Origin: a virus
IMG/VR virus record: IMGVR_UViG_3300023202_000135
Location: 1 to 64,000 of that record
Length of the DNA stretch: 64,000 bases
Reading direction: 5' to 3' (one strand)
In this document: one piece after another, positions 12,326 to 63,562 of the stretch
How positions within the stretch are numbered: the first letter of the stretch is position 1
Layout: each line of letters opens with the position of its first letter
The notes under the pieces: generated by a model
Databases searched by the model: none
The model's input: the letters and a program-made list of their open reading frames with translations, nothing else
What the model was told of the DNA's origin: nothing
Program-made: the position numbers and the translations under genes

Positions 12326-12353
12326 AGTATGACACTTCGTCACCCGCTATCAA
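12326..12353 (-). promoter_or_regulatory. promoter with operator inside the spacer
   Basis: Minus strand: TTGATA, 16 bases, CATACT. The spacer is filled by GTGACGAAGTGTCA, one of the near-perfect dispersed palindromes (12329-12343), so a bound repressor would block RNA polymerase directly. It drives 11555-12274 and the small genes to the left. Confidence 0.55.
12329..12343. promoter_or_regulatory. near-perfect palindrome within a promoter spacer
   Basis: On the minus strand GTGACGAAGTGTCAT, one base from consensus, identical in its first 14 bases to the copy at 56904-56918. It occupies the spacer of the promoter at 12326-12353. Confidence 0.6.
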
Positions 12354-12396
12354 GGGCTTTCCCGGGTGACGCGGGGAAAGGCCGCGGAACCGCCTG

Positions 12397-12909
12397 TCAA
12401 GCGGGGGTTATGTCCACGTCGATGAAGTCGCGCAGCGGTGCCAGCTCCCCGCCCTTGACACCGCCGGGGATGCGCTCCAAGGGGATCCGTGTGGCCACGA
12501 CGTCGACCTTCTCCGCCATGAAGGCGTCGAGGGCTTCCGTATGCTCCTGCCGCTTCTCGTAGGCCCCGGGCATCTCCTCCTTGAGCTTCTCCAAGGCCGC
12601 CTGGAACGCGGTCAGGTCGTCGATCACGTAGTTGCCGTCCGGGCCGGAAACCGGCTCCCCGCCCGCTTTCCGTGCGTATCGCTGGCAAAGCTCCTGCCGC
12701 TTGCGCTCGAACGCGGCCAGCTCCTCGCTCACAGGTGCGTTGAGCGTCGCGTTGATGCGGTCCATCTCCGCTTCGACTGCCCCCATGATGGTCGCGACCC
12801 AATAGGCGAAGTAGGGCTTGTTGTCCGAAGGGATGTGCGAGAGGGCCTGGGCCGCCTCTCCGATCGAGAGGACCTTGGTCCTCGTGACCGGGACGATCGT
12901 TTCTTTCAT
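12397..12909 (-). CDS. helical hypothetical protein
   Basis: 170 residues, MKETIVPVTR onward; GAAGGACGG upstream. Long amphipathic helices (35-80 and 95-130) suggest a coiled-coil or assembly protein. No family recognised. It is the last gene of the block that begins at 14179 before the promoter at 12326-12353. Confidence 0.6.
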   Translation of the reverse strand: MKETIVPVTRTKVLSIGEAAQALSHIPSDNKPYFAYWVATIMGAVEAEMDRINATLNAPVSEELAAFERKRQELCQRYARKAGGEPVSGPDGNYVIDDLTAFQAALEKLKEEMPGAYEKRQEHTEALDAFMAEKVDVVATRIPLERIPGGVKGGELAPLRDFIDVDITPA

Positions 12910-12939
12910 GGTCCGTCCTTCGGCCGCGCTGCGGCCGGG

Positions 12940-13407: not shown

Positions 13408-13408
13408 G

Positions 13409-14179: not shown

Positions 14180-14213
14180 GAGGGCTCTCCTTGGTATAAG
14201 GGGTGACGCGGTA

Positions 14214-14240: not shown

Positions 14241-14252
14241 GCGAAGATCGCG

Positions 14253-14657: not shown

Positions 14658-14658
14658 G

Positions 14659-15213
14659 TTAGTCTCCTCGAATGCGAACGGTTCCGCCGCCGAGACCGTC
14701 CAGATCGTCTTCGTCGATGACCACCACGATGTCGTCGTCGGACGAGGCGGTGGTCGCAGTGCGCGGGTCGATTATGAGGGGCAGATCGTAAGATTCCACC
14801 GTCACGACAACCTCCAAGCCGTCGATGTCCACGGGGATCGGTGACGAAACGTCACCGAGCACCTCGACGACCGGCGCATCGGCGCGGACGGGGATGCCGG
14901 GCGTGGTGTCGACCAGGGCGACAACGGTGGCGTCGTCGGCGTAAACCTCGATCGGCGGGACGTGGGTAGCTGGCCGGCGAATCTCCTCGACGACCGGAGC
15001 GAGCTGGTCGAGTACCAGATCGTCAACGGCCCCCCCGAGGACGAGAAGGGTGCCGAGACGAACGTCCGGGTCGATGGTCGACAGGTTGAGCTGGAGCGTG
15101 TCGACTTCGACAACCGCTTCGATCGGCTCAGGGATGAAGATGCACCACTCGTCAGCGGTGTAGTTGCACCACTCTCCCTCGCTGAACGTTAGCCATGTGA
15201 GCTGATCGGCCAC
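14659..15213 (-). CDS. acidic beta-rich virion-type protein
   Basis: 184 residues from a GTG just after the previous stop. Very acidic (DDDIVVVIDEDDLDG near the end) and built from alternating short beta strands with Val/Ile-Asp repeats. A perfect copy of the dispersed palindrome lies in it at 14841-14855, read as Gly-Asp-Val-Ser-Ser-Pro. No function visible. Confidence 0.55.
   Translation of the reverse strand: MADQLTWLTFSEGEWCNYTADEWCIFIPEPIEAVVEVDTLQLNLSTIDPDVRLGTLLVLGGAVDDLVLDQLAPVVEEIRRPATHVPPIEVYADDATVVALVDTTPGIPVRADAPVVEVLGDVSSPIPVDIDGLEVVVTVESYDLPLIIDPRTATTASSDDDIVVVIDEDDLDGLGGGTVRIRGD
14841..14855. promoter_or_regulatory. perfect GTGAC-N5-GTCAC palindrome
   Basis: GTGACGAAACGTCAC, extended to GGTGACG / CGTCACC arms. 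Lies inside a coding region. Confidence 0.6.
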
Positions 15214-15215
15214 AC

Positions 15216-16286: not shown

Positions 16287-17783
16287 TTACGTAAGATCGG
16301 CCGTCTTGATCGTTCCGCCGTCATTGTAGGCGAACGTGACGTCACCCGTCGCCGTATTTTTGTGGATACCGCAGTCTTTATCATTCGGGTACTCGGTCGT
16401 GGTGGGTGCGGCGGATGTTGTCGTGAACCCGGCGATTCGCAGCGATCCGGATCCGATGGTCAACTGATCGGCCACCGTGACATCGCCGCTCAGCGTCCAA
16501 GTGTCGAGGCCGGCGTTGTAGCGGGCAGCCTCGCCGCTGGTTTGCTTGTTGACGACGAAATCATGGTCGAGTGCATCCGGGTTGACGATGCTCTCGTCCT
16601 TCGTCCACTGCGCGACTTCGACTCCGCCCGAATTGCCTTCCTCGTTGACGGCGAGGATCCAGTGGGCGTCGAACCCGGTCGCGTCGTCGGCTGGGGTATT
16701 AGTGACGAAGCCGAAGAGCCCGACGCCTTTGTAGTACGACGCACCCGTGTGGCCTTTGCCCTCCAACCCGACGAGGATGTCGCCGGCTTGAATCTTCTGC
16801 GGGGCGCCTTGGGTGCCTCGTCCTCGGTGGCCCGTGAAATAGGCAGCATGCCAGTCGGTTGCTGAGAAGGTTTCCCCGACGATATATTGCCAATCGTCGT
16901 CGAAGTTCTCGACAGAGAAACTGCTCCCGTTAAGGCTATTGACGAGCGCGTACAGGGCGCCACCGATGCGCACGTTCTTGTCGGCGCCAATACCACCAGC
17001 AACGACGAGCGCGCCGTTGGTCGGGAGCGTGGCATCAGTAGTCGCCTCGATCTCCAAGCGGTCGGCGAAGGTCGACAGGATGTGCGTGCCGCCAACAGTG
17101 GTGCCGATGAACGCGCTGCCAGGGTCGTACCACCAACCGACTTCAAGTGTGATTGGGTCATAGGTGCCATTGTTGTCGTGGAACGCGAACTTGGGGTCGG
17201 TTGCCGAACCGCCACTCCGAGTCCGGATTTCGTCGAGCGCAATGAGGTCGTCACCGCAAACAAGGTCACCGCTGGTAGCGACCTTGTTGTCGCCGATCTC
17301 CAGAATGAGGCTACCGTTGACGACACAGCCGATCAGCCCGAGGCTGTTGATCTCCGTTCCAAACCCGCCGCCCGATCCGCGGTGCGCGTACCAACCGATG
17401 CGGTTGGCGTCGGTATGGCTGGCGGGGTCGAGCGTTCCGTCGGTGAGCGGGAACGCGACGGCGAGGTCGGTCTCCAAACCAAGACTGCCGAGCAGCACCC
17501 CATCTTTAGCGCCGACCTTGCTGCCGGACATGATGTTTCCACCGACCGCGAGACCGCCATTCGGGACCACAATGGCGCCATCGGTCTCGTCGGCGGCTGC
17601 GGTCGCATTGGTGAAGGTCTTTTTCCCGCCGACAGTCTCGTCGCGCGTCCGATCGACGTAGTCAAGTACGGTTTTGATGTTCGATTCGGCCAAATCCGCA
17701 GGCTTGGCAGAGACGCCGAGCGCGTTGCCTTTGAGCGTGTTGGCTGGCATTTCTGCCAGCCACTTGTTCTTGGTCAGAGCCAT
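16287..17783 (-). CDS. tail fibre / virion surface protein
   Basis: 498 residues. Begins MALTKNKWLAEMPANTL and has KTFTNATAAADETDGA and two GALVVAGGIGADKNV-like segments typical of phage fibre shafts, where repeated hydrophobic beta strands precede a receptor-facing domain. No chaperone-type C-terminus is seen. It is separated from the next fibre gene by the operator-like hairpin at 17803-17817. Confidence 0.6.
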   Translation of the reverse strand: MALTKNKWLAEMPANTLKGNALGVSAKPADLAESNIKTVLDYVDRTRDETVGGKKTFTNATAAADETDGAIVVPNGGLAVGGNIMSGSKVGAKDGVLLGSLGLETDLAVAFPLTDGTLDPASHTDANRIGWYAHRGSGGGFGTEINSLGLIGCVVNGSLILEIGDNKVATSGDLVCGDDLIALDEIRTRSGGSATDPKFAFHDNNGTYDPITLEVGWWYDPGSAFIGTTVGGTHILSTFADRLEIEATTDATLPTNGALVVAGGIGADKNVRIGGALYALVNSLNGSSFSVENFDDDWQYIVGETFSATDWHAAYFTGHRGRGTQGAPQKIQAGDILVGLEGKGHTGASYYKGVGLFGFVTNTPADDATGFDAHWILAVNEEGNSGGVEVAQWTKDESIVNPDALDHDFVVNKQTSGEAARYNAGLDTWTLSGDVTVADQLTIGSGSLRIAGFTTTSAAPTTTEYPNDKDCGIHKNTATGDVTFAYNDGGTIKTADLT

Positions 17784-17802: not shown

Positions 17803-17817
17803 GTGACGAAGCGTCAC
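17803..17817. promoter_or_regulatory. perfect GTGAC-N5-GTCAC palindrome, intergenic
   Basis: GTGACGAAGCGTCAC within a 17-base hairpin (arms GGTGACG / CGTCACC). It lies about 20 bases before the start codon of the fibre gene at 16287-17783, where a bound protein or an RNA hairpin could affect its expression. Confidence 0.65.
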
Positions 17818-17842: not shown

Positions 17843-19267
17843 TCAGACGAAGTATTTCACGACCAACTCGTCGTTGACCGCGATGTCCTCGCTGAGGCCC
17901 GTGGCCGCGCCGTTGTTGTTGAAGTGGAACTCGTCGCTGTTGAGGATGTCGAAGTCAGGCGTCACGCCGCTCCCGCCCACGGTCTGCTTGTTGACCTGCT
18001 CCGGACCTCCCTGCGGGAACGCCTGCACGCCGGCCGGGTCGTTCGGCACCGAAGGCAGCGTGAAGAACCCGTTGGTCGACTCGGGGCCAGTGATGACGTG
18101 CACGATGATCGTGATCGCCGCGGAGACAGCCGCGATGGCGGTGTCGACGTAGTCCGTCGAAGCGGCGTTCGTCGACCCATCGCCCTGGGTCTGCGTAGGG
18201 ACCTGGACCGTTCCGCCGGCCGTGGCGAAGTCGAAGGTATCGCTGAGGTCGACCTCAGTGGCTCCGATCGAGTCGGGATTCACGCGGAGTTGGTTCGAGC
18301 CGTTGACGCCGATGGTGTCCGCGTCGACGAGCACACCCACGCCGTTGACGGTGACGCTGATCGCTGAGGCGATGTTGGCGCCGCCGACCGAATCGGCCTG
18401 CACCGACACCACCGTCCCGGAGCCTCCCTGGAGGCCGTTGCCGAAGGCCGAGCTGGCGAGCTGCACCTCGGTGATGCCTGCGTTCTTGACGATCAGCGAG
18501 CCCGGTCCCGAGCCCGTAATGCCGATGGTCGCGTCATCGTAGTTGATCGCGATGTCGTCGGCGTTGACCGTGATGGCGCCGGTCGAGTTCTGACCGACGT
18601 TGAGGGTGTTGCTCGACTTGGTCAGGCCCGCGCCCGCGGTGACGCCGGAGAGCCCGCCGAAGGGGTCCCAGCTTGTGCCGTCCCAGCGATAGAACTGGCC
18701 GCTGTCGAGGTCCCATACCAGAGCGCCGGGGCCTTCGACCGACACGTCGTACTCGACGACGAAATCCGCCCCGTCGTACTCGACGATGTCGTTGTTCTCG
18801 ACCCCCGTAATGGTGCCGAAGTTTGCGTGCAGCGTCGCGGTGTCGGTGACGATGTACCGGTCACCGGTAGAGGGCGAGGCGCCGGGATCGAGGGTGCCAT
18901 CGGTCTGGATGTCGTCGACGTCCGCCTGGAAGTCGAGGCCTGTCACCGCCGAGTCGAGGTCCGTTTGTCGCACCGCATCGTTGGGGTTGACCGGCGCCCC
19001 CAGGTTGGTGAGGCGGTTGAGGCCCATCGACTGGTCGCCGGTGAAGGCTTGCCCGCCGTCCGCCTGGATCACAGCCTCGGCCAGCTTGGAGAGCGCGATG
19101 CTGCCCGCCAGCATGCCGTTCGTGATGCCCAAGGACTTCACGTTGATACCGGTGACGGTGCGCTCGATCGCACCGGACGCGTCGACGAAGACTTGGAGGG
19201 CGCCGGAGCCATCGTCTTCGAGGCTTTGAGCGTCCTTGTTGATCCATTTGGCTCGCATGAGGGTCAT
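17843..19267 (-). CDS. tail fibre protein
   Basis: 474 residues from MTLMRAKWIN, with GGAAGGAAC upstream. Fibre hallmarks: a RLTNLGAPVNPNDAVRQTDL segment of the kind that repeats in phage fibres, a central GDRYIV...WDGTSWDPFGG region and a C-terminal beta-rich head with DEFHFNNNGAA and NDELVVKYFV. Probably trimeric and distal. It is the first of four or five adjacent fibre-type genes. Confidence 0.7.
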   Translation of the reverse strand: MTLMRAKWINKDAQSLEDDGSGALQVFVDASGAIERTVTGINVKSLGITNGMLAGSIALSKLAEAVIQADGGQAFTGDQSMGLNRLTNLGAPVNPNDAVRQTDLDSAVTGLDFQADVDDIQTDGTLDPGASPSTGDRYIVTDTATLHANFGTITGVENNDIVEYDGADFVVEYDVSVEGPGALVWDLDSGQFYRWDGTSWDPFGGLSGVTAGAGLTKSSNTLNVGQNSTGAITVNADDIAINYDDATIGITGSGPGSLIVKNAGITEVQLASSAFGNGLQGGSGTVVSVQADSVGGANIASAISVTVNGVGVLVDADTIGVNGSNQLRVNPDSIGATEVDLSDTFDFATAGGTVQVPTQTQGDGSTNAASTDYVDTAIAAVSAAITIIVHVITGPESTNGFFTLPSVPNDPAGVQAFPQGGPEQVNKQTVGGSGVTPDFDILNSDEFHFNNNGAATGLSEDIAVNDELVVKYFV

Positions 19268-19284
19268 GGCGGTGTTCCTTCCGG

Positions 19285-19794
19285 CTAGGCTTGGTAGGTG
19301 ACGGTGAGTTCTTCGCCCACTTCGAGGAGGCCGTCGAGGTCGAGGCCGTTCCACCGCAGGCGGTCGAAGATGGCGCCGTCCATGACGTAGTCGACACCAT
19401 AGCGTTGGATGGGTGCTCCCGCAATCTCCAACACGACGTCAGTCGGCTCGATGGGGGTGGCGGTGAGCTGGATGTACTTGTTGTTGAGGTCCGTAACGGA
19501 GAGGGTGAAGAGGTCCACGACCCGGAGCCCAGCACCGGCCTCGAAGACTTTCCAGTCGGAGTTGGTGATACCGGGCCCGAGTCGGAACGTCTTGGGGAAG
19601 CCGCTCAGGAAGTTCCTGACCGTAACCAGCATGCCCTCGACCCGGAGATGGGAGGGGATGTTGTTCCGGTCCGTAGTGGTCTCGACCTGATGCAGGCCGC
19701 CCTTGCCGTCATCGCTCTCGAAGGGCGCGAAGACGTCCTGGTCGTCCGGGGCCTTGATCGGCGCCCCCACGAGGGTGCCCTTACGCTCAGCCAT
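19285..19794 (-). CDS. tail fibre-associated protein
   Basis: 169 residues, MAERKGTLVGAPIKAP onward. It ends in a NGLDLDGLLEVGEELTVTYQA strand similar to the NDELVVKYFV end of the neighbouring fibre, suggesting related domains. Overlaps the next gene by 8 bp. Confidence 0.55.
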   Translation of the reverse strand: MAERKGTLVGAPIKAPDDQDVFAPFESDDGKGGLHQVETTTDRNNIPSHLRVEGMLVTVRNFLSGFPKTFRLGPGITNSDWKVFEAGAGLRVVDLFTLSVTDLNNKYIQLTATPIEPTDVVLEIAGAPIQRYGVDYVMDGAIFDRLRWNGLDLDGLLEVGEELTVTYQA

Positions 19795-20491
19795 CGAGCA
19801 CCTCCACGTCGAGCGTGCCGAAGTGGACCGTGTCCGTCCGGTACGCGTAGTAGGGCTCGACGTGCCCCTCGCTGTTGGTGAAGTTCAGAGCTTGCTGGGC
19901 CCAGGCCGAGTGGGTGACGTCGTTGACGCGGAAGCGCGGGAGACCGAACGACTGCGGGAAGGCGACCCACACGTAGGCGCCTTGGCCGTCGATTCGGAAG
20001 TTCTTGAGGAAGTCGTCTCGGAACTCGTTGTTCGCGAGCGCCAGAATGTCGGCGGAGGTGAGCGTCGGTGACGCATTGACACCCCAATAGACCTTGTGCT
20101 TGAACAGCAGAGATGTCTGCGCTTGGTCAGTGTTCTGGCCGTCGTCGATGGTGAGCGTCCACGTCCGGTCGGACGTGGTTGGATCCGTGAAGAGGTGGCT
20201 CGTCGCTGTCGGCCCTACCGACCCGACTCCCTGGTCGATAGTTTGGTCGTTGACGTCTTTGTTTCGGGTCCAAGTCAATAGGACCGACGAGACGACGGCG
20301 CCCACTTCTGCGGTCCCGCCCCCCGAGAAGGAGAGGATCTCGGGGGCAATGTACTTCAACTCCTCCAGACAGTCTGCGATATTTTTGAAGTTGTCGTTGA
20401 GAGCCTGACCCGCAGCGCCGGTCAAGGGCTCGGGGACAACGATCTGAATATCACGACCGTCAATGGTCTTGTAGACCTGGAGGGTTGCCAC
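19787..20491 (-). CDS. tail fibre or baseplate-attached structural protein
   Basis: 234 residues. The N-terminus contains PLTGAAGQALNDNFKNIAD, a segment found near the start of many phage fibre and structural proteins. The rest is beta-rich with no enzyme motif. It shares a transcript with the fibre genes. Confidence 0.55.
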   Translation of the reverse strand: MATLQVYKTIDGRDIQIVVPEPLTGAAGQALNDNFKNIADCLEELKYIAPEILSFSGGGTAEVGAVVSSVLLTWTRNKDVNDQTIDQGVGSVGPTATSHLFTDPTTSDRTWTLTIDDGQNTDQAQTSLLFKHKVYWGVNASPTLTSADILALANNEFRDDFLKNFRIDGQGAYVWVAFPQSFGLPRFRVNDVTHSAWAQQALNFTNSEGHVEPYYAYRTDTVHFGTLDVEVLDG

Positions 20492-24488: not shown

Positions 24489-25075
24489 GCCCTGCCCAGC
24501 GTCAGCAAATGGTCGAACTGGAGCGCGAAGCTCGCCGTCTTCGGCTGGCTGAACGTGGTGCGAGCCAAGAGCTGTCCGTCGAACGAGAACAACCCCTCCT
24601 CCGTGAAGGTGGTACCGCCGAAGTCGAGCTGGGGGACGACGGCGGAGAACTGCACGCGACCCGCGCTCGGGTAGGTCACGGTCATGGGCGGCACCCCGTC
24701 CACGGACCGCTGGAAAATGGCCGCGGCTTCGATGTCCGTGTCCCCGGGAGCCGGGGCGTTGAGAGACCCGATCGGGTCGGCGCCTAGCTTCATGGTGTGC
24801 CCGAAGGAACCGCTGACGCCGGGATCGTGGATGGTGGTCTCGGTGTAGGCCGTCGAGCCGATGAGCGGGCCGCCGTACCCCCCGGCGAACAGGCCCGCAA
24901 ATGCCTCTAACCCTATATCAGTAACGAGGTTAGTAGTGAGGACCAGAACCTCGGCATGCCGCGACCGCACGCACGCCGCGTGCTCGGACGGCGTGAGGAG
25001 GCGATCAACTCCCCGAGGGAGGCGCGTGATGCGAACCTCCCCCTTGATCGTTAGGGCCTGTGACCTCAGTGACAT
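24485..25075 (-). CDS. tail-associated structural protein
   Basis: 196 residues, MSLRSQALTIKGEV onward. Beta-rich with TTNLVTDIGLEAFAGLFAGG and TEEGLFSFDGQLLARTTF, a layout seen in phage tail-spike/fibre adaptor proteins. A copy of the dispersed palindrome (25069-25083) covers its start codon. Confidence 0.55.
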   Translation of the reverse strand: MSLRSQALTIKGEVRITRLPRGVDRLLTPSEHAACVRSRHAEVLVLTTNLVTDIGLEAFAGLFAGGYGGPLIGSTAYTETTIHDPGVSGSFGHTMKLGADPIGSLNAPAPGDTDIEAAAIFQRSVDGVPPMTVTYPSAGRVQFSAVVPQLDFGGTTFTEEGLFSFDGQLLARTTFSQPKTASFALQFDHLLTLGRA

Positions 25076-25083
25076 TGCGTCAT
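25069..25083. promoter_or_regulatory. near-perfect palindrome over a start codon
   Basis: GTGACATTGCGTCAT; one base departs from the consensus GTGAC-N5-GTCAC. It covers the ATG of 24485-25075, so binding could affect transcription there, and its RNA hairpin could affect initiation. Confidence 0.45.
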
Positions 25084-30543: not shown

Positions 30544-31265
30544 ACCCCGATCCCCCCGAGCGTCGCCCCGCCTGCGGCTATCTGCTTCCAACCTTCCAGC
30601 TTGACCGTGGCCTGGGCCATCAGTGACAAAACGTCACCGAGCCCCCCGCCGACGCCCGAGGAGACGCCGGCGTTGATCGAGAAGTCGGTGGTCTCAGCGA
30701 GGAACTCCTCGAACACGGAGCCCGCGAACACGGCGGGACACGTCGTCTGAACCTGGGTCGCGGCCGTAGTGGCGATAGCCAAGCTGTCCGCGTCGAGGTC
30801 GATGGACTTCAACTCGTCCTGGTATTGCTGCGCGAGGCCGATGGCCGGAGCCTCGTCTAGGCCCTGTATCCCGTCTCGGTAATCAGATTCGAGCTGGGAC
30901 GAGTAATCGCGCGCCATCCCCTCGATCAGCTTCTTCTGCGTCTCGGGGTCGATGCCTTGGAACGTGTCGAGGAGCGCCGTCTCGTCCTGTGCGGTCCGCG
31001 ACGCCTCGTACTGCTTGATCGCGAGCGCGGTCGGGAACAGAGGGCACGTGATGTAGCTGACGAGGTCGGTGAAGGAGATGCCGATCGGGTCGGGGATGAT
31101 GTCGACGATCCCTTCTATCTTGGCGACTGTATCGACCGTGATACTGCCGACTGCCGCGTTGAGCGCGTTCTCGTAGAACTTGGCTTGGCGCACCTTCCCC
31201 AGCTCCCGGCTGACGTACGCCTGGAGAACCGTGATGACAATGTCGGGGCACCCGCAAACGGCCAT
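30540..31265 (-). CDS. baseplate-associated protein
   Basis: 241 residues. Mostly helical, with MAVCGCPDIVITVLQAYV at the start, and glycine-rich near the end. A perfect dispersed palindrome lies in it at 30623-30637 (Gly-Asp-Val-Leu-Ser-Leu). Between spike and tip genes; role unknown. Confidence 0.55.
   Translation of the reverse strand: MAVCGCPDIVITVLQAYVSRELGKVRQAKFYENALNAAVGSITVDTVAKIEGIVDIIPDPIGISFTDLVSYITCPLFPTALAIKQYEASRTAQDETALLDTFQGIDPETQKKLIEGMARDYSSQLESDYRDGIQGLDEAPAIGLAQQYQDELKSIDLDADSLAIATTAATQVQTTCPAVFAGSVFEEFLAETTDFSINAGVSSGVGGGLGDVLSLMAQATVKLEGWKQIAAGGATLGGIGV
30623..30637. promoter_or_regulatory. perfect GTGAC-N5-GTCAC palindrome, intragenic
   Basis: GTGACAAAACGTCAC, in the baseplate gene cluster. 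Confidence 0.6.
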
Positions 31266-31266: not shown

Positions 31267-32283
31267 TTACACCTGCTCGAAGGAGATGAGGGGGGCGCGC
31301 ACGGTCACCTGCGCGGATGAGTTGACGTCGACCTGACCCACGGCCTCGATGCTGGCCTGACCTTCCGACTTGACGACCGCCTCGATTGCGGCCTCGATCC
31401 GGGCAACTTGAGCCTTGACGTCGACGTCCGCATCGGACTCGATTCTGACGCCGGCCACGCCCTTGATCGAGATGGTGCCGTCCGCCTCTACGGTCAGCTC
31501 GCCCCCGGACTGAATGGCAACGGACTGGAGGGCGCGAAGCGAAGCGACCAGCGTCTTCGCCTGCGCGGTGTCCTCGTATTGGCCCAGCACCAGCTCCTCC
31601 GGCTGTAGTGACGCTTTGTCAGCCTGGGTCGAGAGTCCGGTGACCGGATCCACGTCGTGGCCAACCTTGACCTCGTTGTCCGCGGACAGGACGGCGTCCT
31701 TGCCGGTGAGGCGCATGAGGTCTGCGCGCAGCAGCAGCGTTGCAGCCTCGACGAGCAGCGACGCCGCCATGCGGATCTCGCCGCCGGCGCCCTGCATCTG
31801 GAGCGGCCCCGTGGAGCGGAGGCGGACGCTGTTGTCGCGCTTCGAGACCATCACCTCAGCCCGCCCGGAGCGGAGGCGCACCCACATCTCGTCGCTCTTC
31901 TCGGACAGCTCGACCAAGTTCCCCTGGCGGTCCTGCCGACGCCACCGCTTGCGGTTCTGTGCGTAGTCGCTCGTGACGGCCGTTGGGAGGTCCGGGAAGT
32001 TGGCGGATCGCGACGGCGCGGCCCCGACGATGACCGGGTGCTCGCGACGGCCGCGCTCGAACATGACCCACACCACGTCGCCGGTGCTGAGGGGCGGGCT
32101 GTCCCCTGCGTTCTTCGACGCCATCCCGAGCGCGCTCTCGGCCCAAGGAAGATGGTCTACCGGGATGCTTTCCGCGAAGAACTCCGGGACGCGCACCTTG
32201 TACCGTGCGCGGAACTGCTCGTCGTCGGTGCTGACGATGACGCCGCGCCACAGGCCCGCGATGTTGTCAGGGTCCGGTGTCAT
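31267..32283 (-). CDS. baseplate spike protein, gpV / gp5-like
   Basis: 338 residues. An N-terminal OB-fold (LWRGVIVSTDDEQFRARYKV, LPWAES, GDVVWVMFERGRREHPVIVG) is followed from about 170 by a repetitive beta-helix rich in V-I-D alternation (VEADGTISIKGVAGVRIES, ASIEAVGQVDVNSSAQVTV). This is the trimeric cell-puncturing device. No lysozyme domain is inserted, unlike T4 gp5. A near-palindrome lies inside at 31608-31622. Confidence 0.85.
   Translation of the reverse strand: MTPDPDNIAGLWRGVIVSTDDEQFRARYKVRVPEFFAESIPVDHLPWAESALGMASKNAGDSPPLSTGDVVWVMFERGRREHPVIVGAAPSRSANFPDLPTAVTSDYAQNRKRWRRQDRQGNLVELSEKSDEMWVRLRSGRAEVMVSKRDNSVRLRSTGPLQMQGAGGEIRMAASLLVEAATLLLRADLMRLTGKDAVLSADNEVKVGHDVDPVTGLSTQADKASLQPEELVLGQYEDTAQAKTLVASLRALQSVAIQSGGELTVEADGTISIKGVAGVRIESDADVDVKAQVARIEAAIEAVVKSEGQASIEAVGQVDVNSSAQVTVRAPLISFEQV
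31608..31622. promoter_or_regulatory. near-perfect palindrome, intragenic
   Basis: GTGACGCTTTGTCAG; the last base departs from GTGAC-N5-GTCAC. Same centre as the perfect copy at 53099-53113. Confidence 0.5.
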
Positions 32284-42170: not shown

Positions 42171-43649
42171 TTACGAGGGCGTCGCTGCAATCGACACGGT
42201 GTCACCGGGCCACTCGATGGCCATATTCCATTGACGGCCGTCGTCGTCGACCTGGGCGATCCGATACGGGATCCCGGTGACTTGGTCGGTGATCTGGTTG
42301 AACGGGAGGAGACTCGAAGACGTAGCGGCGAACCGCGGGACGTCCCATACCGCCCGTACGTCCTGGACGATGGCTATGCTGGTGTCCGGGGCCACGTTGT
42401 TGTCCGTGCTGCCCGTCACCACGCCGGACGCCACGGCGTGCCCCGCACTCGTGGGGCCGCCGGTCGGCAGAACGACCACGGGCGATATGCGGAAAACGTC
42501 ATCGCGCTCCGCGAACGGCACGCCGAACGTCTCCTTGATGTAGAGGCTCTCCGTGACGTTGTTGTGCACCCACAGCGAAAACAGGACGTCCCTGTTCGAG
42601 ACTCCGATCTTGGGGTCGTCGACTTGGCTCTGCAAGTCGAGCCGGGGGTTCCCGTCTGTCTGTAGTTGGTACCCTCGGACAATGTGCGGCTGTAGGGCCG
42701 CGGTAATGTTCTTGTCGGAGCCCCCGTCGTCGACGAATCGGTAGCTTCTACTGTCTGTGAATGGGATGGCTCCGAACAGTTGCAGGCCCGCACCTTGCGT
42801 GAACCACCGGCGGGTATGGTCGCGGTCCGAGTGGAGATCCGGGTTGGGCTGGAACGTCAGAACCGCACCGTGACCGACGTTCACCGCCTCGCCGGCCTTA
42901 CCCGCCTCGACGTAGAAGCCTTCCCGGCCGCCGACGAACAGGAACTCGTTGTCGAGGGTCATGTCCAGGGTTATCTGGATGCGGTGCGCCACGACCTGCA
43001 AGCGTTGCGAGTCGTCCTTGTTCTGGTTTTGCAGCCACGGGATTACGTCGACCCGGTCCGTCGCGCCGTCCGCGTTGATGAGGAGCCCACAGTGCTGGAC
43101 GACGCCGTCCCCGTCGTACCACCAGAGGTCGTTGAGGAAACTGGTGACGTCGAAGGCATGGGCGTTGATCGCGTCGTGAAGGTTCTGTAGCGATACCTCG
43201 AAGGTAGACCCGATAGCGACCGAGATGTTTCCGGCGCCGACCGTCGCGTCGTTGTCGAACTCGAAGGTGACCGACGTCGTCCCGTCGCTGATGGTGATGG
43301 TATCGCCATCGGTCACTTGCCCGGTGATGGTAATGTCGCCGCGGGCGGGTGACGCTCCGTCACCCCCGGACATGCCGTTGGTGGTGATGACAGCACCGGC
43401 TTCGCTGTGCGTGATAGCGACGTTGCCGCCGCTCCCGTTGCTGTCGTTTTCCAGGTCGATCGTGAACCGCTTGCCGTCCAGGAGGTAGTAGTCTCCGGAC
43501 CCGCCCGAGGCGGTACTCCCGGTGACGTTCTCGAACCCAACGTCGAGCAGGAAGTCGCGGAATGCTGCGGTCACGGTCTCCTTGGTGTGGCTCAGGTCCA
43601 CCGGAGAGAACGTCCAGGTCGCGCGCTTCCAGTCGATAGGTGGTGCCAT
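42171..43649 (-). CDS. structural protein with FEFD-type inserted domain
   Basis: 492 residues. Starts MAPPIDWKRATWTFSPVDL. Residues about 58-165 carry the recurring domain GKRFTIDLEND ... VAITHSEAGAVITTNGMSGGDG, then a second start VTFEFDNDATVGAGNISVAIG ... NLHDAINAH. The rest includes FLFVGGREGFYVEAG and RSYRFVDDGG, like neck/adaptor proteins of other phages. A perfect dispersed palindrome is at 43349-43363. Confidence 0.6.
   Translation of the reverse strand: MAPPIDWKRATWTFSPVDLSHTKETVTAAFRDFLLDVGFENVTGSTASGGSGDYYLLDGKRFTIDLENDSNGSGGNVAITHSEAGAVITTNGMSGGDGASPARGDITITGQVTDGDTITISDGTTSVTFEFDNDATVGAGNISVAIGSTFEVSLQNLHDAINAHAFDVTSFLNDLWWYDGDGVVQHCGLLINADGATDRVDVIPWLQNQNKDDSQRLQVVAHRIQITLDMTLDNEFLFVGGREGFYVEAGKAGEAVNVGHGAVLTFQPNPDLHSDRDHTRRWFTQGAGLQLFGAIPFTDSRSYRFVDDGGSDKNITAALQPHIVRGYQLQTDGNPRLDLQSQVDDPKIGVSNRDVLFSLWVHNNVTESLYIKETFGVPFAERDDVFRISPVVVLPTGGPTSAGHAVASGVVTGSTDNNVAPDTSIAIVQDVRAVWDVPRFAATSSSLLPFNQITDQVTGIPYRIAQVDDDGRQWNMAIEWPGDTVSIAATPS
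43349..43363. promoter_or_regulatory. perfect GTGAC-N5-GTCAC palindrome, intragenic
   Basis: GTGACGCTCCGTCAC, extended to 8-bp arms (GGGTGACG / CGTCACCC). Within the FEFD-domain protein gene. Confidence 0.6.
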
Positions 43650-45381: not shown

Positions 45382-45425
45382 GGGGCTGCTCTCCTGTGCT
45401 GCGGTGACGTGATGTCAGCGGACGG

Positions 45426-48128: not shown

Positions 48129-48144
48129 CGGTAGCTCCTGTAGG

Positions 48145-48324: not shown

Positions 48325-49922
48325 CAGACCGTGTGTCCGTTGTAAGGTCCGGTGTACTTGGCGGCGTAAACCGCGGAGAGGAGGAGGGCGTCAGGCACCA
48401 CGAGCGCCAGAGAGTCCTCCTTGGGCCGCGCGAGCAGCGCGAATCCTACATTCACTGCCGAGTCGATTTGCTCCTGCTTCGTGTAGGTCGGAGCAGAAAC
48501 GTCGTCCTCAACTGTGACCATCGCATCCCCGACGATGCCGGGTTGGAGCAGACCAACGACGAGATACGGGTGCGGAGCAAGTCCATGCCACTCGTACCGA
48601 ACGCTGGAACCGAGGTCAACTGTAGTAGTCTGACCTATCTTGTCCAGCGAGAGCACCTGTCTCACATCGGGCCCCATGACGGTCAGGAGCCGCGGTGCGC
48701 CCCCCGGCGTTCCGGCGAATCCGGGCTGGTACATCTGGTCCGCAACGACGGTGAAAATGTGGACGTTCTTGGGCGGCCCGGAGCCCGTGGGAGGCAAAAG
48801 AAGCTCGTAGGTCGACGTTATGTCACCGGCCTCGTTGCGTTGAAGGCCCTCGAAAGACAGTGGATCGGGGTCCGGGGCGAGGTACCGGAACGCAGTGGAG
48901 AAGATCCCCACGCCCAGGTTGTCCTCGGTCACCGGAGCATCAGCAATCGTGACGCTGTCGTCGTCGTCCCCAAGGACCAAATCCAAGCCGGCGGCGGGCT
49001 TGGGCTTGTGATACGCCAACTCGTTCCAGGCGACCTCCGCATCTCCGGTCTTGGGCCACTTGCCCGCGAACTCGGCCGGCTCCCAGGGAATGTGGTAGAG
49101 GTTCGGCGTCGTGTGGGCCTTGTCCTCGCTGAACCGCGACGCGGGTGACGTAGTGTCACTGACCCCGAATATGGGAGCCTCGATCGAAGTGACCGGGTGC
49201 GCCGACACGGTCGGGTTGCGCATGATCCACGTGCGCAGCTCGACGGTCATGATCGTCCGGATATACCGCTGGTCGGGGCCCTCCAAGTCGGACTGCTCCG
49301 CGAAGCTGAGCCACCTGAGCTGTTGCTTCCACTCCCCAAAAGGGTCGCGGTGGTCGACGGACAGGAGCATCTCCTGGTCCTGCATGCCGAGCGTGCCGAG
49401 CTGACCGAGCACCCACTCGCGGAAATAGTTGTCGGTGTATCGCTTGAGGCACCAGAAGGTGATGTCGTAAGTTGTGCGGTACGGCGCGGGCCAGGGGTGA
49501 ATCTCCCACTGTTCGGTCTCGACGTTGTAGTGGACCTTGCGCAAACGCTTCGGCACCCCACGCACGCCTTGATCCGGCACGGGCTCGCGCCGCTCGATGA
49601 TGGCGATCGGAAGCGGGAGCACTTCCAGGTCGAAGCGGCTCGCGACCGCCGACTTCATCTTGGCCGCGACCTCATCGACGGTCCCCGACGTGTCAGTCGG
49701 CTTGATCCAGTCCATCGCGACGAGCAGGTCCACGACAGCGGCGAAGCCTTGCTGCGGCCCGCCCAGGCCCAGGCCGACGAGGAGCGGCTGTTCCCCCGGA
49801 GGCGGCTGCAACGGGCTCTCGTTCGGCCACGTGCCGTAATCGACCAGCAACGATCGCAACCACCGCCACATGGCGACGTCGTGTGTCCTGATCGAATCCT
49901 CGTAGGTGTACGGCTGACTCAT
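48324..49922 (-). CDS. tail/neck structural protein
   Basis: 532 residues. The N-terminal half has YRTTYDITFWCLKRYTDNYFREWVL, a motif seen in tail-terminator-type or neck proteins of related phages. The remainder is beta-rich. It lies right next to the sheath. A perfect palindrome is inside at 49145-49159. Role not certain. Confidence 0.55.
   Translation of the reverse strand: MSQPYTYEDSIRTHDVAMWRWLRSLLVDYGTWPNESPLQPPPGEQPLLVGLGLGGPQQGFAAVVDLLVAMDWIKPTDTSGTVDEVAAKMKSAVASRFDLEVLPLPIAIIERREPVPDQGVRGVPKRLRKVHYNVETEQWEIHPWPAPYRTTYDITFWCLKRYTDNYFREWVLGQLGTLGMQDQEMLLSVDHRDPFGEWKQQLRWLSFAEQSDLEGPDQRYIRTIMTVELRTWIMRNPTVSAHPVTSIEAPIFGVSDTTSPASRFSEDKAHTTPNLYHIPWEPAEFAGKWPKTGDAEVAWNELAYHKPKPAAGLDLVLGDDDDSVTIADAPVTEDNLGVGIFSTAFRYLAPDPDPLSFEGLQRNEAGDITSTYELLLPPTGSGPPKNVHIFTVVADQMYQPGFAGTPGGAPRLLTVMGPDVRQVLSLDKIGQTTTVDLGSSVRYEWHGLAPHPYLVVGLLQPGIVGDAMVTVEDDVSAPTYTKQEQIDSAVNVGFALLARPKEDSLALVVPDALLLSAVYAAKYTGPYNGHTV
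49145..49159. promoter_or_regulatory. perfect GTGAC-N5-GTCAC palindrome, intragenic
   Basis: GTGACGTAGTGTCAC, read in its gene as Ser-Asp-Thr-Thr-Ser-Pro. Confidence 0.6.
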
Positions 49923-53013: not shown

Positions 53014-53098
53014 GGCTTCTCCCTTGTGAATCGGCGCTGCCGATGGTTCAGGCCTTATGGTCGCGGGGAAGCGGCGACCTGCAAGCAGTAGTAGTGGG

Positions 53099-53113
53099 GT
53101 GACGCTTTGTCAC
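53099..53113. promoter_or_regulatory. perfect palindrome beside a CCACTAC element
   Basis: GTGACGCTTTGTCAC, immediately followed on the minus strand by CCCACTACTAC (53091-53098). Lies about 80 bases before the start of 52288-53013. Confidence 0.65.
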
Positions 53114-53123
53114 TCCATGAAGA

Positions 53124-53145
53124 AGCCCGGCGACGGGGCCGGGCT
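53124..53145 (-). terminator. probable terminator hairpin
   Basis: Perfect 8-bp arms AGCCCGGC / GCCGGGCT, 6-base loop, followed on the minus strand by TTCTTC. It ends the transcript of 53175-55486 and precedes the palindrome/CCACTAC region that starts the neck cluster. Confidence 0.65.
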
Positions 53146-53174
53146 CTAAGTCAAGTCTCGATTTGAGGGGCGGC

Positions 53175-55562: not shown

Positions 55563-55563
55563 C

Positions 55564-56903: not shown

Positions 56904-56918
56904 GTGACGAAGTGTCAA
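56904..56918. promoter_or_regulatory. near-perfect palindrome with adjoining CCACTAC element
   Basis: GTGACGAAGTGTCAA, one base from consensus. On the minus strand it reads TTGACACTTCGTCAC and is followed after 4 bases by CCACTACGG. The TTGACA-N17-TACGGT layout looks like a promoter, but a leftward transcript from it would meet the terminator at 56816-56846 at once. Confidence 0.5.
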
Positions 56919-57067: not shown

Positions 57068-57147
57068 GTATATGCGGACCTCGTACACGAGCCGATTCTG
57101 GCACCACGGCAAATGCTGCAACCGCGTCAATATGGCGTAGTGCCGAG

Positions 57148-57218
57148 TTGCCTCCCCTGGACTCGAACCAGAACTAGCAGAGCCAAAATCTGCTGTGCTA
57201 CCATTACACCAGGAGGCA
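57148..57218 (-). tRNA. tRNA-Gln (anticodon TTG)
   Basis: Acceptor TGCCTCC / GGAGGCA, D-arm with GG, anticodon arm GCAGA-TTTTGGC-TCTGC, T-arm with TTCGAGT. No encoded CCA. Reads CAA. Confidence 0.9.
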
Positions 57219-57282
57219 TTGCGTCCGCGCCCCCTTATCCCTGTACTTCGGGGCTTGCGATTGGAGGGCCGGCGTTCCAACC

Positions 57283-57316
57283 CTCGCGCGCGCGTAGGGG
57301 CGCCCGGGCGCGCGAG
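57283..57316. repeat. GC hairpin between tRNA genes
   Basis: Arms CTCGCGCGC / GCGCGCGAG (9 bp) with a 16-base loop, between tRNA-Gln and the tRNA 3' half at 57338. No U-run. Role unknown. Confidence 0.5.
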
Positions 57317-57337
57317 AGGAGCAGGGACCGGCCAAAG

Positions 57338-57380
57338 CTGCCAAGGGAGGGGTCGAACCTCCGACCAGCGGATTAACAGA
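57338..57380 (-). pseudogene. 3' half of a tRNA-Asn-like gene
   Basis: Reads CTGTTAA (anticodon loop with GTT), TCCGC, TGGTC, T-arm GGAGG-TTCGACC-CCTCC, acceptor CTTGGCA and G. There is no 5' half attached: it abuts the complete tRNA-Asn at 57383. Its acceptor pairs perfectly over 7 bp with a 5' half at 57840-57879 on the other side of the HNH gene. Confidence 0.65.
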
Positions 57381-57382
57381 AG

Positions 57383-57455
57383 CAGCCGGTGTGGGACTCG
57401 AACCCACTTCTCGCGGTTAACAGCCGCGCGTAAAGACCTGCTATACTATCCGGCT
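57383..57455 (-). tRNA. tRNA-Asn (anticodon GTT)
   Basis: Acceptor AGCCGGA / ACCGGCT (last pair mismatched), anticodon arm CGCGG-CTGTTAA-CCGCG, T-arm GTGGG-TTCGAGT-CCCAC, discriminator G as usual for Asn. The D-arm is atypical. The stop codon region of the HNH gene overlaps its 5' end by 10 bases. Confidence 0.8.
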
Positions 57456-57817
57456 TGACGTGCGTTGTACCTGCCTGCGCATTTGCGTCCGCAGAACAGC
57501 AAGCCTGACCGACGCTGCGCCGCGAATCGAACCCTTGCGCGTGTCCGTTGGAATGCCTTACCGCATTCCGGGCATTCGAGATCAACCGCAGGATGCGCAT
57601 GGCGCGAACCATGATCCGCTCGCTTCACGAGTTCCAAGTTACCCGGTCGATTGTCCCGCTTCTTCCCGTTCATGTGATGGATCAGCTCGCCGGGCCCGGG
57701 GACCACTCCGTGCGTCTCCCAGTAGACGAGGTGATGCTCATAGCAGTACAGGCCTCGGTACCGCTTTCCGGGGTACCCTTCCGGGGCTTTCACCAGCTCG
57801 TACGGCCCGTTCCTCAT
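57446..57817 (-). CDS. HNH homing endonuclease in the tRNA cluster
   Basis: 123 residues. HNH core YEHHLVYWETHG, ELIHHMNGKKRDNRPGNLEL, then a zinc-ribbon CPECGKAF ... FCGRKCAGR. Weak ribosome site. It lies between tRNA-Asn and a tRNA 5' half, and appears to be the mobile gene that broke or rearranged a tRNA here. Confidence 0.82.
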   Translation of the reverse strand: MRNGPYELVKAPEGYPGKRYRGLYCYEHHLVYWETHGVVPGPGELIHHMNGKKRDNRPGNLELVKRADHGSRHAHPAVDLECPECGKAFQRTRARVRFAAQRRSGLLFCGRKCAGRYNARQAG

Positions 57818-57839
57818 TCGGGTAGTGTAGAACCGGAGT

Positions 57840-57879
57840 TAACACCGGCAAGCCCGCTCTACCGCTGAGCTACTTGGCA
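57840..57879 (-). pseudogene. 5' half of a tRNA gene
   Basis: Acceptor TGCCAAG, TA, then a perfect D-arm GCTC-AGCGGTA-GAGC. After this the sequence does not make an anticodon arm, but it contains a GTTAAC like the Asn loop. Its acceptor is the exact complement of the orphan 3' half at 57338-57380. Confidence 0.6.
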
Positions 57880-57882
57880 ATA

Positions 57883-57968
57883 TGGCGGAAGGTCAAGGAA
57901 TCGAACCCTCATGCTTTCACATGGCCCGGTTTTCGAGACCGGTTGGACGCCGTTGTCCGCGACCCTCC
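57883..57968 (-). tRNA. tRNA-Ser (anticodon CGA)
   Basis: Acceptor GGAGGGT / ACCTTCC (one G-T pair), anticodon arm CCGGT-CTCGAAA-ACCGG, long variable arm, T-arm with TTCGATT, discriminator G and encoded CCA. Reads TCG. Confidence 0.9.
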
Positions 57969-57974
57969 GTAGTA

Positions 57975-58049
57975 TTGCTGCGAGGAGGAATCGAACCCCC
58001 GACCCGTCGATTACGAAACGACCGCTCTGCCGGCTGAGCTACCGCAGCA
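57975..58049 (-). tRNA. tRNA-Thr (anticodon CGT)
   Basis: Acceptor TGCTGCG / CGCAGCA, D-arm GCTC / GAGC, anticodon loop TTCGTAA on stem GTCGT / TCGAC (inner pair mismatched), T-arm with TTCGATT. No encoded CCA. Reads ACG. Confidence 0.85.
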
Positions 58050-58082
58050 TGAAATGATCGTCCCTGCCCGTCAGGGTAAAGC

Positions 58083-58176
58083 TCCGTCGCGGCCTCGAAC
58101 CGCGTCCTTCCGTTCCGGGTGGGGATCGAACCCATGGGGGAGGTCGACGCCTCCCGAAGCCCATCGAACGAAGCAA
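58083..58176 (-). pseudogene. tRNA-like region, unresolved
   Basis: Two T-loop-like sequences (GGTTCGATCC and CGGTTCGAGG) lie 30 bases apart, with a GCTTCGT / ACGGAGC pair that could be an acceptor about 95 bases long overall. No convincing anticodon arm. May be a decayed long-variable-arm tRNA or two fused remnants. Confidence 0.35.
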
Positions 58177-58185
58177 CGATCGTAG

Positions 58186-58262
58186 TGGAGCGCGCAGTCG
58201 GATTTGAACCGACGTCTCCTGCTTGGAAGGCAGGGGCCCTAGGCCAACTGGACGATGCGCGC
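58186..58262 (-). tRNA. tRNA-Gly (anticodon TCC)
   Basis: Acceptor GCGCGCA / TGCGCGC, anticodon arm CCTGC-CTTCCAA-GCAGG, T-arm GTCGG-TTCAAAT-CCGAC, discriminator T and encoded CCA. Reads GGA. Confidence 0.92.
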
Positions 58263-58265
58263 GCG

Positions 58266-58341
58266 TGGTACTCGTGGGCGGACTCGAACCACCAACCTTC
58301 CGCGTATCAGACGGACGCTCTGACCATTGAGCTACACGAGA
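58266..58341 (-). tRNA. tRNA-Ile (anticodon GAT)
   Basis: Acceptor TCTCGTG / CACGAGT (first pair mismatched), D-arm GCTC / GAGC, anticodon arm TCCGT-CTGATAC-GCGGA, T-arm with TTCGAGT, discriminator A and encoded CCA. Reads ATC. Confidence 0.88.
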
Positions 58342-59247: not shown

Positions 59248-59343
59248 CTTGAACGGGCCGTGTTCGTCGTCGGGGCGAACACCTGTGCGTAGTCGCTGTG
59301 TCATTGCGTCACCTCATGAAGAAGGGGGCGAGCCAAAGCCCGG

Positions 59344-60015
59344 TCACTTCACCGCGCGGTACGCGATGCGCTTGCCGATCCGGTTGATGGATGCCCCGCT
59401 GAGTCCGTACTCCTCGCCCAGTTCCCGCTGGTTCTCGCCGGCATCGTACCGAGCGCGGATATCGCGGACCTGCGCGTCGGTCAAGGCTCCGCGACGCGAT
59501 CCGCGACCTACCTTGGTAATCGGCCCCCCAACCGCAGGCCACGTGACTCCCGTGACAAGCTGCCCGATGGTGGGCTGGCTTACCCCGAACTCGACGGCAA
59601 GGTCGGACTGCTTGGATCCGGCCGCGTACCTCTTTCTAATGTCGACGATATTCTCGTCGGACAGCTTTCGCCCGTTGCCGAGCACAGCACGCGAGTGGAG
59701 ATTGTTCGTCGTTGGCGTAGTCCACTCCAAGTTTGCCGGTCGGTTGTTCTGTCGGTCACCGTCGATGTGGTTGACCGGGGAGTCGGCGTGAGATGGTGGG
59801 CCGTTGAATGCGCGGCAGACGAGGCGGTGAACCAGCACCTGCTTCTGCTCGTTGCGGTGGCTCAACGTCACCCGCAGATAACCCATCGTGTGGTTCTTGA
59901 GGGCGAGCACACCGCCGCCGGATCCCCGGCTTTTCGACACGCGCCGCACGTTGCCGTGGTCGCTGACCTCGTAGACGCCTTCATAGCCGTCGACGGGCTT
60001 CCAGGATTCGGACAT
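59344..60015 (-). CDS. NUMOD4-HNH homing endonuclease
   Basis: 223 residues. NUMOD4 (WKPVDGYEGVYEVSDHGNVRR), HNH (PVNHIDGDRQNNRPANLEW), then two C-terminal helix-turn-helix units (YAAGSKQSDLAVEFGVSQPT and YDAGENQRELGEEYGLSGAS). Placed directly after the capsid gene, with its ribosome site in the arm of a hairpin (60019-60049). Confidence 0.88.
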   Translation of the reverse strand: MSESWKPVDGYEGVYEVSDHGNVRRVSKSRGSGGGVLALKNHTMGYLRVTLSHRNEQKQVLVHRLVCRAFNGPPSHADSPVNHIDGDRQNNRPANLEWTTPTTNNLHSRAVLGNGRKLSDENIVDIRKRYAAGSKQSDLAVEFGVSQPTIGQLVTGVTWPAVGGPITKVGRGSRRGALTDAQVRDIRARYDAGENQRELGEEYGLSGASINRIGKRIAYRAVK

Positions 60016-61620: not shown

Positions 61621-61678
61621 GGGAAGTTCCTTTCGGATGTTGGTTGGTGTGCTTGGTTGAGGAAGAACGAGGTGATGT

Positions 61679-63562
61679 TCAGCGGCCGATCTTGGACACC
61701 GCCGCAGCCGCTTGCTTCACGCCGGGGCTGACTTGGTGCCCGTTCGCGGGTCGGTCGGGGACATCGGAGGTCGATTCGACCATGAGCCCTCGACGTAGCG
61801 CGGAGCGTTGCGGAACAGGCGAGTCTTCTGGCTCATCCTCCCCTTCGGCCAGGACCGGCTCGGCCGTCTTGTCCTTGGGGGCCTGCCCGACGATCATGGG
61901 CGCGAGGCCCTCGACCATCTCCGCAAGCTGTTCGAGCGTAGTGGCCTCCTCCAGAACCTTGCGGTAGCGCGCCAAGGCGGGCTGGGCCGCAAGGACCAGT
62001 TCGAGGGCCTCGTCCACCGGTTCTCCGGTTTCGGGGGTCTCCACGATGGGCGCAGGCGCCCGGGTCCGCTCGATCAGTTGGTTGGCAAGTTCTCGGTGGC
62101 CGCTCGACTCGCGTCCCGCCGCTTCTGCGGCCTCAGCCAGTCGCCATGCCTCGTCGCGGTTCGCTTCTGCTTCCGCAACCTTCTGCCGGAGTTCGCCCGC
62201 GCCTTCACGCAGGCGACGATTCTCAGATGTTAGCTGCTTGAGTCGCGATTGCAACTCCTCGACTACGGCCTTGAAGCCGGCTTCGTGTTTGGCTGTCGCA
62301 GCCTCCGTCACCGCGCCGATCGACTCGTCGATCGAGGCCCCGACCGTGATCCCATCCAGCATCGGGCCGATGGACTCGGCCACCTTGCCGAGGAGCCAGT
62401 CGCTCAGGGCGGCCTTGTCGCTATCAGAGAGGTCTTCCCGGGCCCGTGCCTGGGACCACTTCCGGTGGAGCTGGGCCGTCAGCTCGATGGGGTTGCCGGA
62501 GACCTCCTGGAGGGCCTCCAGGAGGGGCAGGAAAGGCTCCTGGAGGCCCTCCTCGGACACCTCGGCGCCCTGGGCCGCCTCGCCAGATAGGCCCTCAGCG
62601 GCGCTCTCTGCGAACTTGAGCATGATGGGCTGGCCGTTGGCCGGGCAGGCCGCGAAGTGGGTCAGGTCGCCGCAAGGCTGGTCCAGGGCCTCGAACACGA
62701 GGTCGACGTGGTCCTGCCCGCAGCGCGCGCAAGTCTTGACCGTAGTGGTGTGGGTGTCGTCGCCCTCCTTGAGCGACTTCTTGCGCTGCACGGCCGGGGC
62801 GTCGGCGCCGGCACCTTTGGACAGGTTGGCGTAGGCGCCTGGGGTGGACGGGCGCATGACCGCGTCCCAGCACTCCAGGATGTAGGTCTCGGGGCTGACC
62901 TTGCCGCTCTCGTCGACCTCGCCGTTGCCGCGAGTCGACACGCCCCAGCGCACGCCCTTGCGGGTGAGTTCCTGGAGGATGAGGCCAGACGGGGTATCGA
63001 GCAGCTCGTGACGAGCCCACACCACGCCGTCCTCCTGGAGCTTGGCCTGGGTAGTGACGAGGGCGACCTCCTTGCCGTCCGTGCGGCCGTCCTTCGGGTG
63101 CTCGAAATGGCCGGTCATCCCGCGCTCGTTGATGCGCTCCAGGATCGGTGACTTTTTGTCACCGAACAGCTTCTCCCAAATCTCCTTCGGGTAGTAGCGC
63201 TTGTTCGCGTTGCGGACGCCGGACCGCTGGCCGGGGCCTTCGACGAACCACCGGCCGTCTTTGGGTAGGGGTACGGTCTCGCCGTTGGGGAGCTTGCGCT
63301 CGACAAGTTCGAGGTCGTTGAAGTTCTCGACCAGCGTCAGGTTGTCGTTCTGCTGGAAGCTCTCGCAGAGCGAGTTGCCCTGCTTGGTGGCCCGCCCTTC
63401 CGCGAACCAGACCTTGTCCTTCTGTGTGACGTACGAGACCTCGGGGGTGAACACGAGGTTGAGGTCGCCGCCCGATTCGAGGAGGCCCTGGTAGCTGTCC
63501 CAATCCTCGATCCAGCCTTCGCAAAGGAGCCGGCGATTAGTAGCTGGGGTACGGGGTGGCAT
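61679..63562 (-). CDS. prohead protease-scaffold fusion, gp21-like
   Basis: 627 residues. N-terminal protease of the T4 gp21 class: NANKRYYPKEIWEKLF, GHFEHPKDGR (His155) and GVRWGVSTRGNG (Ser209). A zinc-type cluster follows (C278-x2-C281, C297, C306). The C-terminal half is a coiled coil (VEELQSRLKQLTSENRRLRE) typical of scaffolds, so protease and scaffold are one chain. Self-cleavage would free both. A perfect palindrome is inside at 63148-63162. Confidence 0.85.
   Translation of the reverse strand: MPPRTPATNRRLLCEGWIEDWDSYQGLLESGGDLNLVFTPEVSYVTQKDKVWFAEGRATKQGNSLCESFQQNDNLTLVENFNDLELVERKLPNGETVPLPKDGRWFVEGPGQRSGVRNANKRYYPKEIWEKLFGDKKSPILERINERGMTGHFEHPKDGRTDGKEVALVTTQAKLQEDGVVWARHELLDTPSGLILQELTRKGVRWGVSTRGNGEVDESGKVSPETYILECWDAVMRPSTPGAYANLSKGAGADAPAVQRKKSLKEGDDTHTTTVKTCARCGQDHVDLVFEALDQPCGDLTHFAACPANGQPIMLKFAESAAEGLSGEAAQGAEVSEEGLQEPFLPLLEALQEVSGNPIELTAQLHRKWSQARAREDLSDSDKAALSDWLLGKVAESIGPMLDGITVGASIDESIGAVTEAATAKHEAGFKAVVEELQSRLKQLTSENRRLREGAGELRQKVAEAEANRDEAWRLAEAAEAAGRESSGHRELANQLIERTRAPAPIVETPETGEPVDEALELVLAAQPALARYRKVLEEATTLEQLAEMVEGLAPMIVGQAPKDKTAEPVLAEGEDEPEDSPVPQRSALRRGLMVESTSDVPDRPANGHQVSPGVKQAAAAVSKIGR
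63148..63162. promoter_or_regulatory. perfect GTGAC-N5-GTCAC palindrome, intragenic
   Basis: GTGACTTTTTGTCAC inside the protease-scaffold gene, read as Gly-Asp-Lys-Lys-Ser-Pro. Confidence 0.6.

Follow-up and report, generated by a model that had tools for sequence, protein, structure and literature searches.

A window of 64,000 bases, comprising bases 1–64000 of a 90,692-base virus record (G000), contains the palindrome GTGAC-N5-GTCAC scattered over genes and intergenic DNA. This raises the question of whether the repeat is a genuine feature of the phage and, if so, which protein reads it. Seven perfect copies are present in the window and ten in the 90.7-kb record (the further three at 65695, 82863 and 86353), compared with about 0.2 expected from half-word counts. 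If one mismatch is allowed, 19 matches are found in the window where 3.7 are expected, and 100 shuffled sequences contained at most 8. In a scan of spacings from 0 to 15 over the whole record, the enrichment was restricted to a spacing of 5, with 10 perfect and 17 one-off copies; all other spacings gave 0–1 perfect copies each. The seven perfect copies claimed by the initial annotation were all found in place, and so were its four one-off copies, but eight others had been overlooked. The site consensus, gGTGACRnwnYGTCACc, is longer than the GTGAC-N5-GTCAC described there.

According to simple gene calls made for this analysis, seven of the ten perfect copies in the record fall within coding DNA and the remaining three between genes. 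The excess claimed earlier stands up to codon-preserving randomisation. Synonymous codons were permuted per gene, which keeps protein and codon usage fixed, and 500 such shuffles contained on average 0.01 copies and never more than 1, versus 6 coding copies observed, the count covering the genes tested only. Since these shuffles are nearly free of copies, a protein-motif coincidence (GDxxSP codons) can be rejected as the source of the sites. CRP half-sites are known as GTGA-N6-TCAC; the corresponding half-sites are separated by N7 here, and this spacing rules out CRP-type sites. The dispersed palindrome is a real feature of this phage.

Table. Palindromic sites and other located features. Positions refer to the window, except for phage VpV262; "listed" and "overlooked" refer to the initial annotation.
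Feature	Positions	Strand	Context	Initial annotation
Site, perfect, GTGACGAAACGTCAC	14841..14855	.	in 14658-14961 gap between gene calls	listed
Site, perfect	17803..17817	.	intergenic, 16287-17783(-) / 17843-19354(-)	listed
Site, perfect	30623..30637	.	within coding gene 30540-31265(-), codons GDVLSL	listed
Site, perfect	43349..43363	.	within gene 42171-43649(-)	listed
Site, perfect	49145..49159	.	within gene 48324-49922(-)	listed
Site, perfect	53099..53113	.	intergenic 53014-53174	listed
Site, perfect	63148..63162	.	within prohead protease gene 61679-63562(-)	listed
Site, one-off	4337		start position, <=1-mismatch scan	overlooked
Site, one-off	5623..5637	.	within helicase gene 5267-6841(-)	overlooked
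Site, one-off	9038..9052	.	within helicase/intein gene 7224-9554(-)	overlooked
Site, one-off	12329..12343	.	5' end of ORF 11555-12343(-)	listed
Site, one-off	20068..20082	.	coding	overlooked
Site, one-off	25069..25083	.	overlaps start of 24485-25075(-)	listed
Site, one-off	31608..31622	.	coding	listed
Site, one-off	42870		start position, <=1-mismatch scan	overlooked
Site, one-off	45404..45418	.	intergenic, past stop of 45426-48182(-)	overlooked
Site, one-off	56904..56918	.	intergenic	listed
Site, one-off	59298..59312	.	intergenic	overlooked
Site, one-off	59857		start position, <=1-mismatch scan	overlooked
Primase/helicase block	795..6841	-	left end of window	
AAAGT-N-ACTTT in VpV262	1291, 7007, 22803, 30571, 39214, 44795			

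Judged by its genes, the record belongs to a large T4-like myovirus: by tblastn, the capsid protein matches numerous capsid proteins of T4-like phages, and a prohead protease, a tail sheath and a DnaB-like helicase are encoded. Nearly all genes lie on the minus strand. Since genes run off both ends, the record is a fragment. Its six tRNA genes (57147-58341 and 59344-60015) adjoin HNH homing-endonuclease-like genes at 57446-57817 and, with NUMOD4 and HNH domains, at 59344-60015. The RecQ-like helicase gene (7224-9554, minus strand) carries an apparent intein at the DEAH box, as read by eye from the translation, and similar intein-like insertions are seemingly present in the portal and DNA polymerase genes of the relative G002. 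An ADP-ribosylglycohydrolase gene at 54452-55486 (minus strand; PF03747, E 5e-57) could possibly enable the phage to reverse host ADP-ribosylation. Two open frames of the record are very long. The frame at 66313-75090 encodes 2925 residues, with relatives of 2334–2925 residues in nine contigs, and that at 85811-90691 encodes at least 1626.

Relatives found through the capsid protein (53–68% identical) include contigs of 143, 150 and 156 kb. In these relatives every short inverted repeat was counted without a prior assumption about its sequence. The top dispersed palindrome of most of them has a common register, xGAC-N5-GTCx, with genome-specific letters: TGACA-N3-TGTCA occurs 51 times in G002, TTGACG-N3-CGTCAA 26 times in G004, GTGACA-N3-TGTCAC 17 times in G003 and CTGGAC-N5-GTCCAG 7 times in G005. 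Related forms were found in G001, G007, G008 and G010, and arrays of the same register also in the later-added contigs G024, G021 and G025; the core common to the family motifs is AC-N5-GT. The motif of G022 equals the GTGAC motif of the window. G025 and G005 come from one metagenome, have an identical motif and may be halves of one genome. G020, which is 99.997% identical to G001 and has the same ParB, appeared in a first scan as a ParB carrier without an array, but this was refuted by seven G001-type sites. Because weight-matrix counts include weak sites, strict patterns are quoted where possible. The window palindrome exemplifies a feature found across the family.

The sites recur every 1–12 kb along the whole genome. 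Their spacing is even in G000–G004 and G010, with coefficients of variation of 0.40–0.59 versus about 1.0 by chance (P<=0.007 in six of six genomes, under a null that keeps the numbers of coding and noncoding sites). For G000 this holds for the relaxed set (P 0.007), whereas the ten perfect sites alone are not significantly even (P 0.15). Intergenic DNA is strongly enriched in sites, as in G002, where it contains 33 of the 51 versus 4.3 expected. Many sites lie directly past gene ends, often with the TGA stop codon within the site, and genes of great length contain internal ones. The initial annotation had asked whether position or only count is conserved among relatives; the spacing proved to be kept, while positions are hardly kept (P < 0.05 in 2 of 11 comparisons). 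In the other nine comparisons matches at orthologous positions were about as frequent as after random shifts, and conserved gene-specific operators were rejected on these grounds. Since spacing is even and positions are barely conserved, selection looks to act on spacing rather than on control of particular adjacent genes. Sites as promoters in general were also rejected, because their flanks in G000–G004 lack a conserved -10 element except in a subset. As a separate observation, six G002 sites (3083, 5346, 8120, 108010, 111506 and 113639) have a TANNNT-like box downstream at a fixed distance, followed at several of them by a leader containing AACGGT.

Which protein might read such sites? A protein of 340–435 residues with ParB_N (PF02195, E 1e-14) and HTH_ParB (PF17762, E 6e-7) domains, both above cut-off, is common to the relatives whose contigs include the replication block. 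Compared with solved structures, its profile matches ParB (E 8e-28), Noc (2e-27) and KorB (2.5e-7), and an AF2 model resembles ParB (6t1f, TM 0.82) and KorB-KorA (8qa9, TM 0.77). The nucleotide-binding motifs GERR or GHRR and EN....R..L are present in all ten phage ParBs. By sequence and model, this candidate reader is a member of the ParB/Noc/KorB family with its CTP-binding motif kept. A ParA-type ATPase (PF13614) was found in none of 17 contigs, which are not proven to be complete genomes, by a search that detected 14 of 14 controls. The ParA-binding motif of ParB, (L/F/I)G(K/R)G(L/F/I) according to a recent survey (PMC12704722), is absent from all ten phage ParBs. Neither hallmark of a ParABS partition system was detected.

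Five of eight phages have a site 16–98 bp upstream of parB, and in three it covers a -35 box that belongs to a convincing promoter. The chance of this upstream placement is about 0.004, with site frequencies measured for four genomes and assumed for four. G003 and G025 have a site 65–75 bp downstream of parB instead. In G022, the left-end genes of the window are followed by genes for DNA polymerase, an SSB-like protein and RecA and then by parB; parB of the window phage would accordingly be expected about 5–12 kb beyond the left contig end. G007, G008 and G010 contain arrays but are fragments ending short of the parB region. G018/G019 (one phage) and G023 encode the ParB and show no clear array, although on contigs of 20–32 kb a sparse array is possible. 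The capsid relatives SP-15, LIS04, Colly_1 and GXN1 have neither a ParB_N protein nor such an array. Since these control isolates are distant (26–32% capsid identity), AT-rich and different in many other genes, the comparison is suggestive only. When viral contigs were scanned for ParB once more, no further phages were added. In the late regions of G001, G003, G005, G006, G008 and G009, one or two additional ParB_N proteins are encoded near the capsid genes, several of them with a DNA methylase-like DPPYN motif. These ParB-methylase fusions were set aside as distinct from the central ParB.

We consider it probable, from sequences and the structural model, that the palindromes are parS-like or OB-like loading sites of a phage-coded ParB clamp that works without ParA and covers the genome. 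A ParB dimer would recognise the inverted half-sites via its HTH_ParB domain, close around the DNA with bound nucleotide and slide off, whereupon the next dimer could load. With sites at intervals of 1–12 kb throughout, clamps could coat or condense the entire phage genome. The site upstream of parB would provide autoregulation. Because some sites overlap promoters, namely the parB promoter in several phages and a minority of other sites elsewhere, KorB-like transcription control is included in the likely output, and a transcriptional role of the sites is possible. We infer ParB binding at the sites, CTP binding, sliding and the genome-wide role. More tentatively, and with rather lower expectation, these partition-free clamps may constitute a viral chromosome system that folds or coats the genome during lytic growth, from evenly spaced loading sites, with site and protein co-diverging between phages.

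A repressor network deserves weighing against the clamp model, although it appears unlikely. In the manner of mycobacteriophage L5 or of Bacillus phage SPbeta, a master repressor, ParB or another protein, would block transcription from many stoperator-like sites, and the genome-specific consensus would reflect immunity groups. The drift of the consensus among relatives is compatible with this reading, as are the sites over the -35 box of the parB promoter and those directly past stop codons, together with a few in other promoters. Against it, no tyrosine integrase (PF00589) was found in 17 possibly incomplete contigs, and a host and prophage search of a bacterial genome collection with narrow patterns confirmed no ParB relative. 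Moreover, the sites are palindromic and hence unoriented, most lack a nearby -10 element, and they are evenly spaced with barely conserved positions.

A Noc-like role, in which clamps at dispersed sites anchor the phage DNA at the membrane or keep the division or host machinery away from it instead of compacting or regulating it, seems improbable to us: Noc is among the top profile and fold matches and its binding sites are likewise dispersed without ParA, but the N-terminus of the phage ParB is lysine-rich and modelled with low confidence. It is very improbable that a different DNA-binding protein of the phage reads the sites and that ParB is unrelated to them. The initial annotation had suggested an RHH protein as reader, and RHH proteins such as MatP do bind such palindromes. 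The small ORF at 4945-5247 (minus strand) does resemble an RHH protein on visual inspection, but no Pfam family matches it. Since none of the 19 further contigs contains a homologue (best tblastn E-value 0.23) while the sites occur family-wide, this assignment is unsupported. Among the other small proteins tested, HTH_3 proteins are patchy among the phages, and the conserved neighbours tested are nucleases, an exonuclease or of unknown function. The implication that a dimer reads the sites survives in part: a site-specific dimer at dispersed genic and intergenic sites of phage-specific sequence is supported by the results, its identification as the RHH protein is not.

Phages often carry ParB-like genes, and the usual annotation of these is as partition proteins, including in phages that have no ParA. 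Vibrio phage VpV262 (AY095314), an unrelated podovirus, encodes an HTH_ParB protein at 18577-19437, and no ParA was found in it. Its genome contains six perfect copies of AAAGT-N-ACTTT versus 0.03 expected, and ten evenly spaced copies with at most one mismatch (P 0.001). The palindrome is shared by its relative, Enterovibrio phage 1.077.O. Since an unrelated phage also combines a dispersed palindrome with a ParB-HTH protein, a ParB-clamp viral chromosome system may have arisen more than once. No strong palindrome was detected in six other phages with ParB-like proteins (Maja, Versailles, Kiko, pYD38-A, KpV2811 and 1.055.O), and the palindromes of 1.083.O, OS31 and STGO-35-1 are short, clustered or few in copy; hence, the pairing of array and ParB is not universal. 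If the arrays are ParB sites, whole genomes of lytic viruses are organised or silenced by a ParB clamp, and the DNA specificity of each such protein can be read from the genome that encodes it. The family would then organise or control its whole genome in a previously undescribed way. As cultured cases, VpV262 and 1.077.O make this testable at the bench now.

Among known systems, matS of enterobacteria has the same half-site, GTGACR/YGTCAC, is dispersed and has a structural role. MatP, an RHH protein, reads the 13-bp GTGACRNYGTCAC, in which the spacer is 3 instead of 5, and the record contains no perfect copy with the matS spacing. SPBRE of phage SPbeta, a 15-bp repeat read by the phage protein MrpR (PMC10516654), is likewise a repeated element of a large phage with a single phage reader, but it is confined to about ten promoter regions and the reader is a repressor with a recombinase fold. 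The initial annotation had likened the palindrome to mycobacteriophage stoperators. In cluster A these are many, lie within and outside genes and vary in motif between related phages (PMC6550527), as the present arrays do. However, a stoperator is an asymmetric site that follows the direction of transcription and is bound by the repressor of lysogeny (PMC6550527), whereas the sites described here are evenly spaced inverted repeats with barely conserved positions. The tyrosine integrase or parABS of a temperate phage was not found either (PF00589 and PF13614, in contigs that may be incomplete), and the specific resemblance to stoperators is weak. The survey cited above describes the ParB fold as widespread in phages and often fused to other domains (PMC12704722); neither the passages of it consulted nor the literature searched, which did not extend to subscription papers or preprints, contains genome-wide site arrays of this kind.

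Noc of Bacillus is a ParB paralogue with sites chromosome-wide that does not need ParA, and it is a top profile and fold match of the phage protein; it differs in serving cellular nucleoid occlusion and in its half-site. KorB of plasmid RK2, a CTP clamp of the ParB family, has been shown to slide away from its operators and to silence remote promoters (PMC11790492). Its OB sites are dispersed palindromes, some of them at promoters, and its structure matches the model of the phage ParB. Unlike the phage protein, KorB has a ParA partner, IncC, and 12 sites in RK2 according to the title of a paper cited in PMC11790492, whereas the phage arrays comprise 10–60 evenly spaced sites over 90–156 kb and no ParA was found. 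KorB is the closest working model for the phage arrays, and Noc the closest dispersed chromosomal case.
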